Source: Rhodocyclales bacterium (GTDB lineage Bacteria; Pseudomonadota; Gammaproteobacteria; Burkholderiales; Rhodocyclaceae). From it: 32,082 bases of DNA. Shown here piece after piece: positions 11,216 to 17,913 of the stretch. The notes under the pieces were generated by a model. The model was not told the DNA's origin. It saw only the letters and a program-made list of their open reading frames with translations, and made no database searches. A program made the translations under genes and the position numbers. Where the stretch lies: contig JAPLQZ010000069.1 in NCBI GenBank assembly GCA_026399415.1, positions 1 to 32,082 on the forward strand. The letters are read 5' to 3'. Position 1 is the first letter of the stretch, and each line of letters begins with the position of its first letter.

Positions 11216-11686
11216 TTGAAATCCACCCGATCTCACATGCTCACTCTGGCGACAATCGTCGCGCTGCTTGGCATAGCCATCGTCGGTCACCAGTTGTCGC
11301 CGCTGTTGCTGCCCAAGGCGGACGTGACGGGCGTGGTGGAGCCCGGTTGCGACCTGCACCGGCGTGCCTGCGCGGCGACCCTGCCGCAAGGGGGGCGCAT
11401 GGAGTTTTCCATCACGCCGCGACCGATACCGTTTCTTCAGACCTTGCGTGTTGAGGTGACCGTCGGTGGAGTCGAACCGAGAAAAATCGAAGTGGACTTT
11501 GCCGGCGAGAACATGAACATGGGCTACAACCGAGGCGAACTCATCGCCACCGGTCGTGGCACCTACGCCGGCGAAGCCGCACTGCCGGTCTGTGTCTCCG
11601 GCAGCATGGCCTGGGTGGCCACGGTGATGGTCGAAACCGACCGACAGCGTATTGCCGTGCCTTACCGCTTCGACGTCGGACACTAA
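11216..11686 (+). CDS. Small membrane-anchored protein, FixH/YtkA-like, divergent from nosZ
   Basis: This 156-residue protein has one N-terminal hydrophobic helix and a periplasmic-looking domain. I do not recognise it firmly. The segment DFAGENMNMGYNRGEL followed by a beta-rich part with LPVCVSGSMAW recalls FixH/YtkA-like domains, some of which are tied to copper or oxidase assembly. Cysteines at PGCDLHRRAC and LPVC and the Met-x-Met pair could bind copper, but this is inference. The frame starts with TTG at 11216; the ATG at 11237 directly before the hydrophobic helix is an equally good start. It shares the duplicated FNR/DNR control region with nosZ and is followed by a cytochrome gene, so an anaerobic respiration role is likely. 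Confidence 0.75.
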   Translation: MKSTRSHMLTLATIVALLGIAIVGHQLSPLLLPKADVTGVVEPGCDLHRRACAATLPQGGRMEFSITPRPIPFLQTLRVEVTVGGVEPRKIEVDFAGENMNMGYNRGELIATGRGTYAGEAALPVCVSGSMAWVATVMVETDRQRIAVPYRFDVGH

Positions 11687-11700
11687 CCCCACCCCACCAC

Positions 11701-11714
11701 TGGATACAGATCAA
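11701..11714 (+). promoter_or_regulatory. Weak FNR/DNR-like box upstream of the cytochrome c4-like gene
   Basis: TGGATACAGATCAA keeps a perfect second half (ATCAA) and one mismatch in the first half. Its centre is about 68 nt before the ATG at 11776, and a GACAAT at 11738-11743 sits at the class II spacing (33 nt centre to centre). One half is degenerate, so confidence is modest. Confidence 0.4.
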
Positions 11715-11775
11715 GGAAATGCTCGTTCCGGGTCTGCGACAATGCGTCACATCATCCGACTCTTAGATTATTGCA

Positions 11776-12429
11776 ATGCGAAACCACTTTTATTTTGTGC
11801 TGCTTGCGCTGTGCGTCAACGGCCCGGGGCACGCCCAAAATCTCGAAAAAGGCAAAGAAATAAACAGCACCTGCGCCGGCTGCCACGGCGAACTCGGACA
11901 GGGAGGCTCGCGCGGCGAATACCCGCGCATCAGCGGTCAACGACCGGCTTATATCGTTGATCAGCTCAAATCATTTCGCGCCCGCAAACGCGTGAATATT
12001 CCGATGTACCCCTATACCCAGGAGCGCGAGCTTCCCGACGAGGACATCAAGGACGTTGCCGCCTACCTGGCATCCATCGAGTTGCCCACCAAGTGGCCGG
12101 TGTTCAAGGACAGCGACGACGCTTTGACCCGACTCACCCTGACCGAGCGCGTGATGATCATTCCCCGCGTAGCGGGCAACCTCGCCAACGGTGAAGCCAT
12201 CTATCAGAAGAAGTGTTTCGCTTGCCACGCGCCCACCGGCATGGGGCGCGGCATGTTCCCCATGCTGGTCGGGCAATACACCAGCTATCTGATGCGGCAG
12301 ATGGAGAAATACATCAAGAGCGAGCGCCCGCATGACGAGGAAGGGGTCGGCGGCGTGCTCAACACGCTCAGGGAAGAAGACCTGCAGGACATCCTCGCCT
12401 ACCTGACATCGATTCAGGAACGTCAGTAA
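11776..12429 (+). CDS. Cytochrome c4-like diheme cytochrome c
   Basis: This 217-residue protein has a signal peptide ending near Gly-His-Ala and two heme c sites, CAGCH (about residues 34-38) and CFACH (about 149-153). Each half has the Y/F-P-x-I/L-x-G-Q motif of cytochrome c4. It is homologous in layout to the diheme cytochrome of the nos cluster. Cytochromes of this class carry electrons between the bc1 complex or quinol dehydrogenases and periplasmic reductases, so NirS or NosZ are plausible partners given the location between the two clusters. Its stop is only 9 nt from the end of the convergent nirH remnant; no terminator is visible there. Confidence 0.9.
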   Translation: MRNHFYFVLLALCVNGPGHAQNLEKGKEINSTCAGCHGELGQGGSRGEYPRISGQRPAYIVDQLKSFRARKRVNIPMYPYTQERELPDEDIKDVAAYLASIELPTKWPVFKDSDDALTRLTLTERVMIIPRVAGNLANGEAIYQKKCFACHAPTGMGRGMFPMLVGQYTSYLMRQMEKYIKSERPHDEEGVGGVLNTLREEDLQDILAYLTSIQERQ

Positions 12430-12438
12430 GGACTGGTA

Positions 12439-12805
12439 TTACCCGGCAATGCGCAGGCCGGTTTTTTTCAGGATGGCGGTGCTGTAGAGAATGTCGTGCG
12501 ATCTGCAGGCATCATCCAGCAGCGCCTCTATCTCCGCCACGCGAGCCGCAACCTCCTCCCGGTTCCGCCCATGCACCATGGCGAACAGGTTGTAGGGCCA
12601 GTCTGGCAGACGGCGCGGGCGGCGGTAGCAATGCGTGACGAATTCCAGTGCGCCGACCTGCACACCCAAGTCGTCGACACGGGCATCATCGACATCCCAC
12701 ACCGACATGCCATTGGCCGTGTAGCCGATGGCATAGTGATTGGGCGGCGACCATCAGGCGCCGGTCGGTGGCGTCGAGTTCGGGCTTCTGCCTCGTGTCA
12801 GGCAT
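12439..12805 (-). pseudogene. nirH: nirH-like siroheme decarboxylase gene broken by an internal deletion
   Basis: The gene starts at ATG 12805, overlapping the nirG stop by 8 nt, and codes MPDTRQKPELDATDRRLMVAAQ, the normal start of an AsnC-like NirD/L/G/H protein. It then jumps directly to NHYAIGYTANGMSVWDVDD in another frame. The original frame would end after 39 residues. The downstream frame stays open to 12439 and keeps THCYRRPRR and WPYNLFAMVHGR, the conserved core. Comparison with the intact nirG shows roughly 45 residues missing, with a length that is not a multiple of three. A short protein could start at ATG 12708 (89 aa) but would lack the HTH half. Either a real decay or an assembly error. 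Confidence 0.85.
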
Positions 12806-13271
12806 GCAGCTTCATCTCCACAAAATATTCGCGTTCTTTGGGAAACGCGAATACCTGCAAGCCTGTTGCCGCTTCGATCGCGGCAATGGTTTCGGCAATG
12901 CCCTGCGGTGTCGCCGTGGCGAGGACAAACCACATGTTCAGAGCGTGCTCGCGGCGGTAGTTGTGCGCCACTTCGGGGAAGGCGTTCACCTGCGCCACGA
13001 CCCGCTCGAAGCTTTCTTCCGGCACGCTCATCGCCGCCAGCACAAACGCGCCGCCGGCCCGTTCGATCTGAAACATGGGGCCGAAGCGCGTCAGCACGCG
13101 ACGTTCGAGCATCGAATCAAGACGCCGCAGCAGTTCCGTCTCGCTCATGTCGAGGGCTTCCGCGACCTGGCGATAGGGTTCGGCAACCAGCGGGAAATCG
13201 CCCTGGAGGGCGTTGATCAGCCTTCTATCGGTCTCGTCCGGCGGCGCCGTGGACGCTGCTGCGTCATGCAC
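12798..13271 (-). CDS. nirG: NirG-like siroheme decarboxylase subunit (heme d1 synthesis)
   Basis: This 157-residue protein belongs to the AsnC/Lrp-like NirD/L/G/H family. An N-terminal winged-helix part (DRRLINALQGDFPLVAEPY, then SETELLRRLDSM) is followed by the conserved HNYRREHALNMWFVLATA core. These proteins decarboxylate siroheme to 12,18-didecarboxysiroheme in heme d1 synthesis rather than bind DNA. I chose the GTG at 13271, which overlaps the nirDL stop by 8 nt, because the same 8-nt overlap links nirG to nirH; a frame opening at 13310 lies inside nirDL. Assignment to NirG rather than NirL rests on the neighbours. Confidence 0.82.
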   Translation of the reverse strand: MHDAAASTAPPDETDRRLINALQGDFPLVAEPYRQVAEALDMSETELLRRLDSMLERRVLTRFGPMFQIERAGGAFVLAAMSVPEESFERVVAQVNAFPEVAHNYRREHALNMWFVLATATPQGIAETIAAIEAATGLQVFAFPKEREYFVEMKLHA

Positions 13272-14268
13272 GGATCGATCCGTTCGCTGCCGGCAGGGAG
13301 GATTCGGCAAAATAGCGCGCCCCGCATTGCTTGAAGCGCCGCGTCGAGAACAGTGCCTGCGCGGGCAGGCCTGCCAACCGGCTCAAGTGTTCGATTACCG
13401 GTTGTACTTCCTCGCGCGAACGGCCATGCACCATGCAATAGAGGTTGTAGCGCCAGTGCGGCAGGCTGCGACCGCGCCGGTAGCACAGCGTCACGCCGGC
13501 TTCGGCGGCGAACAGCCGGCCGATGCGGTCGACGTCCGCGTCGGGTGCGTCGAACACCACCATTGCGTTGGCGCGGTAGCCCAGTTCGTGGTGGCGCACG
13601 ATGACGCCGAAACGCTTGATCAGACCCTCTTCGAGCCAGCCGCTTATCCGCGTCAGGACTTCACTCTCGCTCATGCCGACGCGCTCGCCGAGACGCGCGA
13701 AGGGGCGCGACACCAGTTCAAGGCCGGGCTGCAGCGCCGCAATCAATTGCTTCTCGGCGGCATCCGGCGCGCGCACCGGTGTGTTCGGGGTTTCGGCGTG
13801 ATGCTTGTGCGGCGACTTCAGATCGAAACCGAGGTCGATGTGATATTCCTGCTCCAGCGGCAGGGAGATGACTGCACAGCCCGTCTCGTTCTCGATCGCG
13901 GCGAGCGCGGCCGCCAGCGTGGCCTGGTCGGCGGCCGTGGCAACGAACCACAGGTTGTAGTGATGCTCGCGCTGGTAGTTGTGATTCACTTCCGGCCTGG
14001 CGCTGACCTGTGCCGCGATCTGCTCCAGCCTTTCAGCCGGAGCAGCGAGCGCCGCCAGCGTCGAGGCGCCCACGCGCCGCGGCGCAAACACTGCCCCGAC
14101 GCGACTGATGGCGCCGCGCGCCTGCAATCGCCTGAGTGTCGCCAAAGTCGCCGTGTCGTCAGCGCCGACTCCTGCGCCAAGCTGCGCGAATGGCTGCGTC
14201 GTAATTGGAAAGTCGCGCTGCCAACCATTCAGCAGGGCAAATTCAAGTGGGCTGTAGGGCGAATCCAC
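13264..14268 (-). CDS. nirDL: NirDL fusion, siroheme decarboxylase (heme d1 synthesis)
   Basis: This 334-residue protein has two AsnC-like halves. The first (about residues 1-150) carries HNYQREHHYNLWFVATA and the second (about 180-320) carries LCYRRGRSLPHWRYNLYCMVHGRS, joined by a linker with His/Pro. Fused NirDL proteins, as in Paracoccus and Hydrogenobacter, decarboxylate siroheme to 12,18-didecarboxysiroheme. It starts with GTG at 14268, 2 nt after the nirF stop, and its stop overlaps the nirG GTG. With nirH broken, NirDL plus NirG would have to carry this step. Confidence 0.88.
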   Translation of the reverse strand: MDSPYSPLEFALLNGWQRDFPITTQPFAQLGAGVGADDTATLATLRRLQARGAISRVGAVFAPRRVGASTLAALAAPAERLEQIAAQVSARPEVNHNYQREHHYNLWFVATAADQATLAAALAAIENETGCAVISLPLEQEYHIDLGFDLKSPHKHHAETPNTPVRAPDAAEKQLIAALQPGLELVSRPFARLGERVGMSESEVLTRISGWLEEGLIKRFGVIVRHHELGYRANAMVVFDAPDADVDRIGRLFAAEAGVTLCYRRGRSLPHWRYNLYCMVHGRSREEVQPVIEHLSRLAGLPAQALFSTRRFKQCGARYFAESSLPAANGSIRA

Positions 14269-14270
14269 GA

Positions 14271-15446
14271 TCAGAATCCGATGCGTGCGGCGCGGCTGGT
14301 GAAAAAGATGCCGGAAGGAGCATCGGCGGCAAGGCTGCCCAGATTCCGGAAGGTCTTCGTGTCGTAAATGACGACGCGGTTGTCATCGCGCGCCGACAGC
14401 CAGACGGCCTCGCCGCGCGGCGTGAACTCCATGTGCAGCACGGCCTTGCCCGGCTGCAGGGTTTGCACTATTTTCCCCGTCAGCGTGTCGATCACCTGTA
14501 CCCAGCCGTTGTCCGGAAACGCGAAGTTAACCCAGACCTGGCGGCCGTCCGGGCTGGCCATGACGAACACCGGCTGGCCCTTGACCGCCACCCTGCCGGT
14601 TTCCTTCCAGCTTGCCGCGTCGGCTATCAGTACCTCATGGCGGCCGATGGCGGGCAGCCAGGCACGACCTGCCGCCACTGACCAGCCACGCAGATGCGGC
14701 ATCTTGAATACCGGCAATTTTTCCTCGCCACGGCCGTATTTTTCCAGGATCTTGCGCGAACCCTGCTCCGGCTGCCACAGATCGAGCAACGCGATGCCGT
14801 CCTCGCCAAACAGACCGGCAAGGTAGTAGCGTCCGTCGGGCGTGACCAGACCGTCATAAGGCTGCAGGCCGGCCGGATAGCGCTTGGTCACGGGCCGCTT
14901 CGAATCGGAAAAATCGCTGACCCATATCTCGCCGCCATCGAACAGCGCGTAGGCAAACTTGTTGCCCGGCACGTCGGCCAGACCGACCACCTTGGAGAAA
15001 CTTCCCGGCGCGTACTCGGCCGGGACTTCAGAGAGCAACTCAAGCGTTTCCGCATCGAAGGCCTTGATTCCACCCGGCGTGTAGTTCTGCGCCACGACAA
15101 TGCGTCCGTCCTGCGAGATCGAGCCGCCGATGGCGTTACCCGACTGCATGATGCGCTTGACGATGCGGGCTTCGAGCAGATCGACTTTGGTCAGTCCGCC
15201 ATCGCGACCAAAGATGAACGCGTAACGGGCGTCGCGCGAATAGACGACGGACGCATGCGAGAGGTCACCGAGACCGCCGATGCGGGCATAGGCCTCCCGG
15301 CTGCTGGTATTCACCAGCGTGACATGGCTGCTGGCGCGCTCGACGACCAAGCCGAGGTCGCCCGTGCCGCGCAGCGGCATCCCGCTGCATGCACTCAGCA
15401 GGACGGCCAGAAGGCCGGAGAAGAACAGTTGCATGATCCGTCTCAT
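14271..15446 (-). CDS. nirF: NirF, heme d1 biosynthesis lipoprotein
   Basis: This 391-residue protein resembles the d1 domain of NirS without the cytochrome c domain, as NirF does. It has a short hydrophobic start and a lipobox L-S-A-C with Cys20, so it is probably a periplasmic lipoprotein. Beta-propeller-like repeats such as SPDGRQVWVNF, TPDGRYYLAG and SQDGRIVVAQN run along it. NirF is required for late steps of heme d1 synthesis. Its ATG overlaps the nirC stop as ATGA. NirN, a relative with a cytochrome domain, is excluded because no CxxCH is present. Confidence 0.93.
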   Translation of the reverse strand: MRRIMQLFFSGLLAVLLSACSGMPLRGTGDLGLVVERASSHVTLVNTSSREAYARIGGLGDLSHASVVYSRDARYAFIFGRDGGLTKVDLLEARIVKRIMQSGNAIGGSISQDGRIVVAQNYTPGGIKAFDAETLELLSEVPAEYAPGSFSKVVGLADVPGNKFAYALFDGGEIWVSDFSDSKRPVTKRYPAGLQPYDGLVTPDGRYYLAGLFGEDGIALLDLWQPEQGSRKILEKYGRGEEKLPVFKMPHLRGWSVAAGRAWLPAIGRHEVLIADAASWKETGRVAVKGQPVFVMASPDGRQVWVNFAFPDNGWVQVIDTLTGKIVQTLQPGKAVLHMEFTPRGEAVWLSARDDNRVVIYDTKTFRNLGSLAADAPSGIFFTSRAARIGF

Positions 15447-15772
15447 TCAGGAAACCCCGCCATTAACCGCTCAACAATCCACTGTGCTTCATCTTCCGCC
15501 AAGAATCGGTGCCACGGCGGCATCGGCGTCCCCGGGCGGCCGCCGATGATGGTTGCCACCAGGCCCTCTGCCGGTTTATCGGCGAGCGTTGCCGGCAGCA
15601 GCGCCGGCCCCAGTCCGCCGCGCAAGGTCATGCCATGACAGGAACCGCAATCCTGCCGCACCAGGTGGACCAGTTCCTTCTGGCGAGCCGCCGTCAATTC
15701 GGCCATGCCCGGCATGGCCAGGCTGCCAAGCAGGATTGCCGTCAGTGCGTAAAGGAAGCGACTACTCGACAA
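15443..15772 (-). CDS. nirC: NirC-like monoheme cytochrome c
   Basis: This 109-residue protein has a signal peptide ending at Gly-Met-Ala, a heme c site CGSCH at about residue 42, and the segment RPGTPMPPW with Met as the likely sixth ligand. Small cytochromes NirC encoded between nirS and nirF deliver electrons to NirS or take part in d1 maturation. The frame starts with TTG at 15772, overlapping the cupredoxin stop by 11 nt. No strong ribosome binding site is seen, so reinitiation after the cupredoxin is likely. Confidence 0.9.
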   Translation of the reverse strand: MSSSRFLYALTAILLGSLAMPGMAELTAARQKELVHLVRQDCGSCHGMTLRGGLGPALLPATLADKPAEGLVATIIGGRPGTPMPPWHRFLAEDEAQWIVERLMAGFPE

Positions 15773-16151: not shown

Positions 16152-16236
16152 TTGCTGCCAATCAAGCTTTGCTTACAGCCGACAGGCTCGACGTCACTGG
16201 ACCGGCGTCAATCCCCGCTGAAACTTCACCCCAAGA

Positions 16237-17913
16237 TCAATAAATGTCGTGCTGCGTGTTGTAGACGTTGAACTTGCCGGTCGGGGTGATCATCTTCGGA
16301 TCGGTAATCACCTTCTTCATGGCCAGGGTCTTGTCGTCATAGACGACGATGGCGGACTGGTCGGTCTTGCCGCCCCACAACGAGATCCACACCTCGGAAC
16401 CATCGGCGCTGTATTCCGGATGCACGGCACGACGGGTTGCCTTGGTCACCGGCAGGCCGGAATCCTTGGCCACGTTGATGATCTTCTTCGGCTTCGACAG
16501 GTCGGCCATATCCCACACCGCGACGGACTCGGCGAGTTCCTTGTCCGGATTCTGCGGCGCGTCGGCCCACAGATTCTTCGACTTCGGATGGGTCTTGACG
16601 AACAGGTTGCCCGGCACGTGCTTGACTTCCTGCACCACCTTCCAGTTGAACTCCTTGAACTTGGCGTTCTTCTTTTCGTCGGACGGCGTGCTGATCAAGG
16701 TCACGACATCGGCGCCGAGGTGGCCCGTAGCCCAGACCGGACCGAACTTCGGATGCATGAAGTTGGCACCGCGACCCGGATGCGGAATCTTGGCCGTGTC
16801 GATCAGGGCAGCCAGCTTGCCCAGCTTGGTATCCACGGCGGCGATCTTGTTCGAGGCATTCGCCGCGACCAGGAAGTAGCGCTTGGAGGCATCCCAGCCG
16901 CCGTCATGCAGGAACTTGGCGGAAGCGATGGTGGTGGTCTTCAGGTTCTTGATGTCGCTGTAGTCCACCAGCAGGATCTGGCCGGTTTCCTTGATGTTGA
17001 CAACCCACTCGGGCTTGATCTCGGAGGAGACGATCGAGGCCACGCGCGGCTCGGGGTGATATTCGCCGTCCACCGTCATGCCGCGGGTCGACACCACCTT
17101 CAACGGCTTCAGCGTGTCGCCATCCATGATCACGTACTGGGGCGGCCAGTAGGAACCGGCAATCGCGTACTTGTCGTCGTAGCCCTTGAACTTGGAGGTA
17201 TCCACCGAGCGGGCATCGAAACCGATTTTCAGTTCGGCCACCACGGCAGGCTTCTCCATCCACAGGTCGATCAGCGACAGGCGGCCGTCGCGGCCGATCA
17301 CATAAATATAACGGCCGGACTTCGACATACGCGAAATGTGCACTGCGTAGCCGGTCTTGACGATGCTGCGAATTTCCTTGGTATCGCCGTCGATCAAGGC
17401 CACTTCGCCGGTGTCGCGCAGCGTCACGGAGAAGAAGTTCTTCAGGTTGAACTTGTTCATCTGCTTGGTCGGACGATCCTTGACCGGGACGATGACCTTC
17501 CACGACTCCGACATTTCCTTGAAGCTGTACTCGGGTGGTACGTCCGGGGTGTTCTGGATGTACTTGGCCATCAGGCCGATTTCTTCCTTGGTCAGGATGT
17601 CGTCGAAGTTCACCATGCCGCCATCAGTACCGTAGCCGATGATCTTTTCCAGACGATTCTGGCCGAGTTTAAGCGTGCCGCCTTCGGTCTTGGCGCCGTC
17701 CTTGGCCGTCTTGGTCCAGTGCGGCTCGAGGTTCTTGCCGGTGGCGCCCTTGCGCAGCACGCCGTGGCAACCCGCGCAACGCTCGAAGTAAATCTTCTTG
17801 GCCTGCTCCTTTTCGGCGGCGGTCAAGGTCGGTGCGGCTTCCTGCGCAAACGCGCTGCCCATGGCGCCGGCCATGGCAGAAACAGCAAATAATCCAAGTA
17901 ACGTCCGTTTCAT
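16237..17913 (-). CDS. nirS: NirS, cytochrome cd1 nitrite reductase
   Basis: This 558-residue periplasmic enzyme reduces nitrite to nitric oxide. It has a Sec signal peptide ending at Phe-Ala-Gln, an N-terminal cytochrome c domain with CAGCH at about residues 46-50, and the eight-bladed d1 domain. The YAVHISRMSKSGRYIYVIGRDG segment holds the His that ligates heme d1, and EYHPEPRVASIV and FMHPKFGPVWATGHLG hold the catalytic histidines. The length is typical. The ATG at 17913 has GGAGAG upstream. An FNR/DNR box lies about 115 nt before the start. It heads a minus-strand operon with cupredoxin, nirC, nirF, nirDL, nirG and the broken nirH. Confidence 0.97.
   Translation of the reverse strand: MKRTLLGLFAVSAMAGAMGSAFAQEAAPTLTAAEKEQAKKIYFERCAGCHGVLRKGATGKNLEPHWTKTAKDGAKTEGGTLKLGQNRLEKIIGYGTDGGMVNFDDILTKEEIGLMAKYIQNTPDVPPEYSFKEMSESWKVIVPVKDRPTKQMNKFNLKNFFSVTLRDTGEVALIDGDTKEIRSIVKTGYAVHISRMSKSGRYIYVIGRDGRLSLIDLWMEKPAVVAELKIGFDARSVDTSKFKGYDDKYAIAGSYWPPQYVIMDGDTLKPLKVVSTRGMTVDGEYHPEPRVASIVSSEIKPEWVVNIKETGQILLVDYSDIKNLKTTTIASAKFLHDGGWDASKRYFLVAANASNKIAAVDTKLGKLAALIDTAKIPHPGRGANFMHPKFGPVWATGHLGADVVTLISTPSDEKKNAKFKEFNWKVVQEVKHVPGNLFVKTHPKSKNLWADAPQNPDKELAESVAVWDMADLSKPKKIINVAKDSGLPVTKATRRAVHPEYSADGSEVWISLWGGKTDQSAIVVYDDKTLAMKKVITDPKMITPTGKFNVYNTQHDIY

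Follow-up and report, generated by a model that had tools for sequence, protein, structure and literature searches.

The NirDL protein of Hydrogenobacter is sufficient alone. Haufschildt et al. 2014 reportedly name two essential histidines in the title of their study. The siroheme decarboxylase of Hydrogenobacter is a single two-domain chain, and in the excerpted text of PMC4835899 the binding histidine is placed on strand beta 2 in both known structures, both domains possessing one. For AhbA, AhbB, and their homologues, the excerpts of Palmer et al. (PMC4145669) describe a conserved HXYXR motif that faces the cavity. According to the same excerpts, His115 of AhbA is an iron ligand, and His98, Tyr100, and Arg102 of AhbB are proposed to be catalytic, with His98 acting as acid/base. 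The exchange Arg102Ala in AhbB leads to an inactive complex, and some decarboxylation was observed in vitro with AhbA or AhbB alone, in excess (PMC4145669, same excerpts). In Pseudomonas aeruginosa, NirDLGH is presented as the siroheme decarboxylase of heme d1 synthesis in the excerpted part of PMC3942049.

The window, i.e., the whole stretch of 32,082 nucleotides analysed here, is one contig of a draft assembly that comprises 315 contigs and is 85.8% complete. On the minus strand the genes occur in the order nirS, a small frame, nirC, nirF, nirDL (fused), nirG, and nirH; past nirH, a convergent cytochrome gene is followed by the nosZ cluster. Similar to NirH of the P. aeruginosa NirDLGH system, the window nirH is located behind nirG in a nir operon. 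Its start at 12805 overlaps the nirG end, and the direct succession of both genes was also observed in the genomes G002, G012, and G009. As in H. thermophilus NirDL (PDB 4CH7/4CZC), D and L halves are fused. The features are as follows:

12439..12805, minus strand: nirH with an internal out-of-frame 134-bp deletion (translation, alignment to relatives)
12686..12805, minus strand: frame from the native nirH start, 39 residues and then a stop (translation)
12745..12746, approximate, minus strand: deletion junction (alignment; breakpoint uncertain by a few bases)
12442..12753, minus strand: remnant open frame of 104 residues with AsnC-type binding domain (PF17805) and intact HXYXR (profile match)
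12798..13271, minus strand: nirG, open, AhbA-like, HXYXR present (start codon inferred)
13264..14268, minus strand: nirDL fusion, open, 334 aa
13474..13488, minus strand: NirL motif LCYRR, with Leu in place of the His of HXYXR (motif according to PMC4145669)
14271..15446, minus strand: nirF-like cytochrome d1-domain gene, open
15443..15772, minus strand: nirC-like c-type cytochrome gene, open
16237..17913, minus strand: nirS, cytochrome cd1 nitrite reductase, open

The native nirH frame begins with MPDTRQKPELDATDRRLMVAAQ, runs into SLCHRLHGQWHVGVGCR, and stops after residue 39. Its first 22 residues are as expected; beyond approximately residue 22 the frame departs from the family, and the core NHYAIGYTANGMSV is read in another frame up to the TAA at 12439-12441. 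Alignment with nirH of nine relatives from the same genus revealed a single 134-base gap in the window gene. All nine relatives have these bases and none of them carries an indel within this stretch; further gaps are confined to the ends and to the vicinity of the start, a region that varies among the relatives as well. The match coordinates of G012, G009, and G004 also yield 134 missing bases. Since 134 equals 3x44+2, approximately 45 codons are gone and the reading frame breaks. An internal out-of-frame deletion of nirH and a loss of roughly 45 residues had been claimed in the original prediction, and both claims are borne out by the alignment. It also described nirS and the rest of the operon as looking intact; nirS, the nirC- and nirF-like genes, nirDL, and nirG are all open.

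The window copy lacks the single uninterrupted frame of about 160-170 residues that is expected for NirH. The N-terminal HTH domain (PF22451) is likewise missing; its three matches in this genome fall twice into NirDL and once into NirG. Judged from NirG, in which the HTH family is matched, the lost segment comprises most of the HTH. The remnant retains the binding domain (PF17805, 93.3 bits, 12466-12729) with the motif THCYRR, and its identity to NirH of G012 and G004 amounts to 88% and 93%, respectively. It aligns to positions 51-146 of the 146 positions of AhbB, the siroheme decarboxylase beta subunit (NF040707; PDB 4CZD/4UN1), including HXYXR, but lacks the N-terminal third and with 118.4 bits remains under the cut-off of 125. 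Compared to a functional NirH of NirDLGH, the window copy thus differs by the missing 134 bp, the broken frame, and the absent HTH match, and we consider nirH to be very probably disabled. PF17805 was matched four times in the whole assembly, always within this operon. A second intact nirH, which according to the original prediction would have weakened the functional point, was not seen in searches of the 85.8% complete assembly with PF22451 and PF17805.

Production of a shortened NirH from the internal ATG of GMSV (89 residues), lacking the HTH and still pairing with NirG, would be compatible with the remnant having kept the motif and almost all of the binding domain, and the changes in the remnant are mostly synonymous. 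However, this substitution pattern is explained equally well by recency, a ribosome-binding site was not seen by eye before the GMSV ATG, the domain would lack its first residues, and none of the 28 further genus genomes with nirH has this form. We regard such a product as very improbable.

The genus compared is Sulfuritalea-like, and its 30 other genomes were surveyed with NirH of the nearest relative as query. Full-length nirH (162-172 residues open; two copies in G046) was observed in 28 of them, i.e., in every other genome of the genus that bears the gene. Both exceptions are incomplete and have no domain of the family at all (G021 and G045, 85% and 80% complete, respectively, with nirS present). 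A broken nirH is not the usual state of the gene in this genus.

In the order sample, 87 out of 399 genomes, the window included, match NirH at E <= 1e-10; through the NirDL match, this survey would also catch a nirDL-bearing genome without nirH. At least 52% identity over nearly the whole NirH query was found for 83 of the 87, the window being the 84th. One internal stop occurs in eight of these 83 rows, all of which were kept, and the three inspected ones proved harmless (G371 shows the gene-end terminator, G253 and G235 no stop to residue 155). The remaining three genomes are G060, G301, and G416. The domains seen in G060 and G301 are limited to D, L, and G, at which point their contigs end, the nirH start still being visible in G060 (L149). 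In case of G416 (C37, L157/L158), nirH is split into two overlapping frames and the cytochrome d1 gene occurs in two pieces, which suggests sequencing frameshifts of the draft. Within the named collection, at least 592 stretches match NirH, and the best 80 each cover residues 15 to 160 or more. A clear natural loss of nirH was not found, and no operon readable past nirG was seen to lack this gene among the genus and order genomes.

The gap may have arisen in assembly or scaffolding, through local misassembly, a chimeric join at a coverage dropout, or the mixing of strains, in which case the strain itself would carry an intact nirH. This main alternative had rightly been named in the original prediction, and we hold it to be a serious possibility, if somewhat short of an even chance. 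The draft quality of the assembly leans towards an artefact, all other nirH genes found in the genus are full length, and the split nirH and cytochrome d1 genes of G416 suggest that technical breaks of nir genes occur in drafts. On the other hand, the two ends of the deletion share only CCCA, approximately four bases by eye, which is far under known assembler overlaps and too short for a repeat to have misled an assembler. Furthermore, of the 28 other window frames compared with the complete genome G002, 20 are covered by a single match over at least 75% of their length, and no second such gap is present among them; of the other eight frames, a TonB receptor was matched over 62 of 747 residues and seven are without a listed match. 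The short shared end and the lack of a second gap relative to G002 slightly favour a real event. A repeat search of the post-deletion window, which does not cover the lost ends, revealed a pair of 21 bases with 71% identity, one copy of which lies across the junction. Due to the fact that the window has GCC at the junction and the aligned relatives have ACC, ACT, or ACG, a perfect 5-base repeat would require an ancestral change.

The age of the lesion was approached via branch changes, polarised against the nearest relative plus further sequences (28 for nirH, 28 for nirG, 25 for nirDL, and 6 for nirF) and tallied per base, so that codons with two changes count twice. On the window branch, nonsynonymous and synonymous changes occur at 4:12 in the remnant and at 29:54 in nirG, nirDL, and nirF combined (Fisher p = 0.57, with few changes); the sister branch shows 4:8 for the nirH part and 43:53 for the three other genes. 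One remnant change converts Gly to Asp at a position occupied by Gly in 37 out of 37 other sequences compared. This ordinary substitution pattern, with neither an additional stop nor an indel in the remnant, is also in agreement with an artefact. Judged from the sequence comparison, an old gene-breaking deletion appears unlikely; a deletion of very young age would fit, and so would an assembly error. Relaxation would be expected after a loss of any age, and in view of the little decay of the remnant the event would have to be placed at the extreme tip of the branch, which is how an artefact would also look. The explanation that we tentatively favour, at slightly less than an even chance, is that the sampled strain lost nirH function through a very recent deletion; the evidence for it stems from one draft genome.

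For a survey of the HXYXR motif, each distinct stretch round the site in the fetched loci was counted once, and subunits were assigned by best match to the window or G012 queries. Eight plasmid DLGH loci of Alpha-, Beta-, and Gammaproteobacteria are included, the plasmid loci being taken from 12 of 26 plasmid records; four plasmid fusions without adjoining nirG/nirH (Paenibacillus polymyxa, three Cupriavidus) were left out of the count. The window motifs are HNYQR in NirD, HNYRR in NirG, HCYRR in the nirH remnant, and LCYRR in NirL, which still has the motif Tyr and Arg. The motif letters HYR were observed in all distinct sequences of NirD (111/111), NirG (119/119), and NirH (117/117). Distinct NirL sequences are without the motif His in 118 of 118 cases, 117 of them with LYR and one with LAR, the latter from the frameshift-bearing draft G416. 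No discussion of this change was found in the literature listings and excerpts consulted.

NirG is of the D/AhbA type and contributes no B-type His. By motif, NirH is thus the only B-type subunit here with a full HXYXR. It is tempting to speculate, although we consider it rather doubtful, that the four-subunit siroheme decarboxylase consists of a complete pair NirG-NirH and a degenerate pair NirD-NirL, with NirH as the non-redundant B-type subunit; this genome would then represent a natural NirH knock-out, provided that the deletion is real.

The original prediction had proposed that NirDL plus NirG may suffice here, in which case didecarboxysiroheme would be made without NirH and the loss would be neutral. 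The single-chain enzyme of Hydrogenobacter (excerpts of PMC4835899) and the in vitro activity of lone AhbA or AhbB subunits (excerpts of PMC4145669) speak for this proposal, and the L-half His is also missing from three Cupriavidus fusions that have no nirG/nirH in their vicinity. However, Hydrogenobacter NirDL has His in both halves, as do Desulfovibrio AhbAB in both subunits and the Paenibacillus polymyxa fusion, whereas the window L half has Leu and thereby differs from the NirDL that acts alone. NirL being devoid of the motif His and NirG being of A type, NirG cannot replace NirH by sequence. In addition, nirH is retained in every operon readable past nirG, and published heme d1 work, in the excerpts seen, employs NirDLGH, or "NirDL, -G, and -H", jointly. 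Sufficiency of NirDL plus NirG is thus not supported by the 118 NirL sequences and the readable operons; it appears unlikely, and its neutral-loss version highly so. Some residual function is possible in view of the NirL Tyr and Arg and the lone-subunit activity.

In the three Cupriavidus megaplasmid fusions (L193-L195), the motif His position of the L half is occupied by Leu, Met, and Leu, respectively, and that of the D half by His, Gln, and His. Should they be such enzymes at all, they would break the rule that both halves of an enzyme acting alone carry His. By eye, the neighbours of the fused gene of C. metallidurans do not look like nir genes.

In the sequence, 134 bp are missing and the frame is broken, and the other nir genes of the contig are open. 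If the favoured deletion is real, NirDLGH would lack its only B-type subunit with complete HXYXR. Siroheme would then be expected to be turned into didecarboxysiroheme very weakly or not at all, and the supply of heme d1 to NirS would presumably suffer likewise. The strain would then reduce nitrite by NirS poorly or not at all and, with nosZ kept, would be a partial denitrifier.

Regarding other parts of the pathway, nirK was not found in the host assembly, where the sole match (27.5 bits, cut-off 296.3) is located inside nosZ. A second NirS-like gene on another contig of this genome (G000:C158) shares 62% identity with the window NirS over residues 27-457 (431 residues). nirJ (TIGR04051) is not above cut-off in the host assembly; it is above cut-off in 26 of 31 genus genomes. 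G002 and G010, which have the gene order of the window, carry nirJ 3.0 and 4.6 kb, respectively, beyond the last window-matching gene, past the nos cluster. In this comparison, the last gene matching the window is situated 0.9 kb from the left end (position 1). A nirJ at this location would fall off the contig, and it probably lies beyond the contig end; loss of the whole pathway, as could be read from the missing nirJ, was therefore set aside and the absence treated as assembly incompleteness. G012 and G009 have nirJ approximately 1.2 kb after nirH instead.

Two differences in spacing were observed as well. Window positions 11683-11776 span less than 100 bp, and the same two genes are separated by about 2 kb in G002 and G010; the G002 insert reads by eye as a sensor kinase and a response regulator. 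At window positions 16161-16240, G002 has approximately 1.7 kb extra, by eye a NapC/NirT-like gene and another c-type cytochrome gene, both absent from the window.

Taken by itself, the lesion is an ordinary break of a gene, seen in a single draft genome and perhaps artefactual. If it is real, a nirS carrier has turned into a partial denitrifier, and the presence of nirS is no proof of nitrite reduction. The side result on NirL is more interesting than the lesion. In the DLGH loci examined, NirL is without the motif His and NirD, NirG, and NirH keep it, which makes it possible to test directly why four subunits are needed by heme d1 makers and two are used by other organisms.
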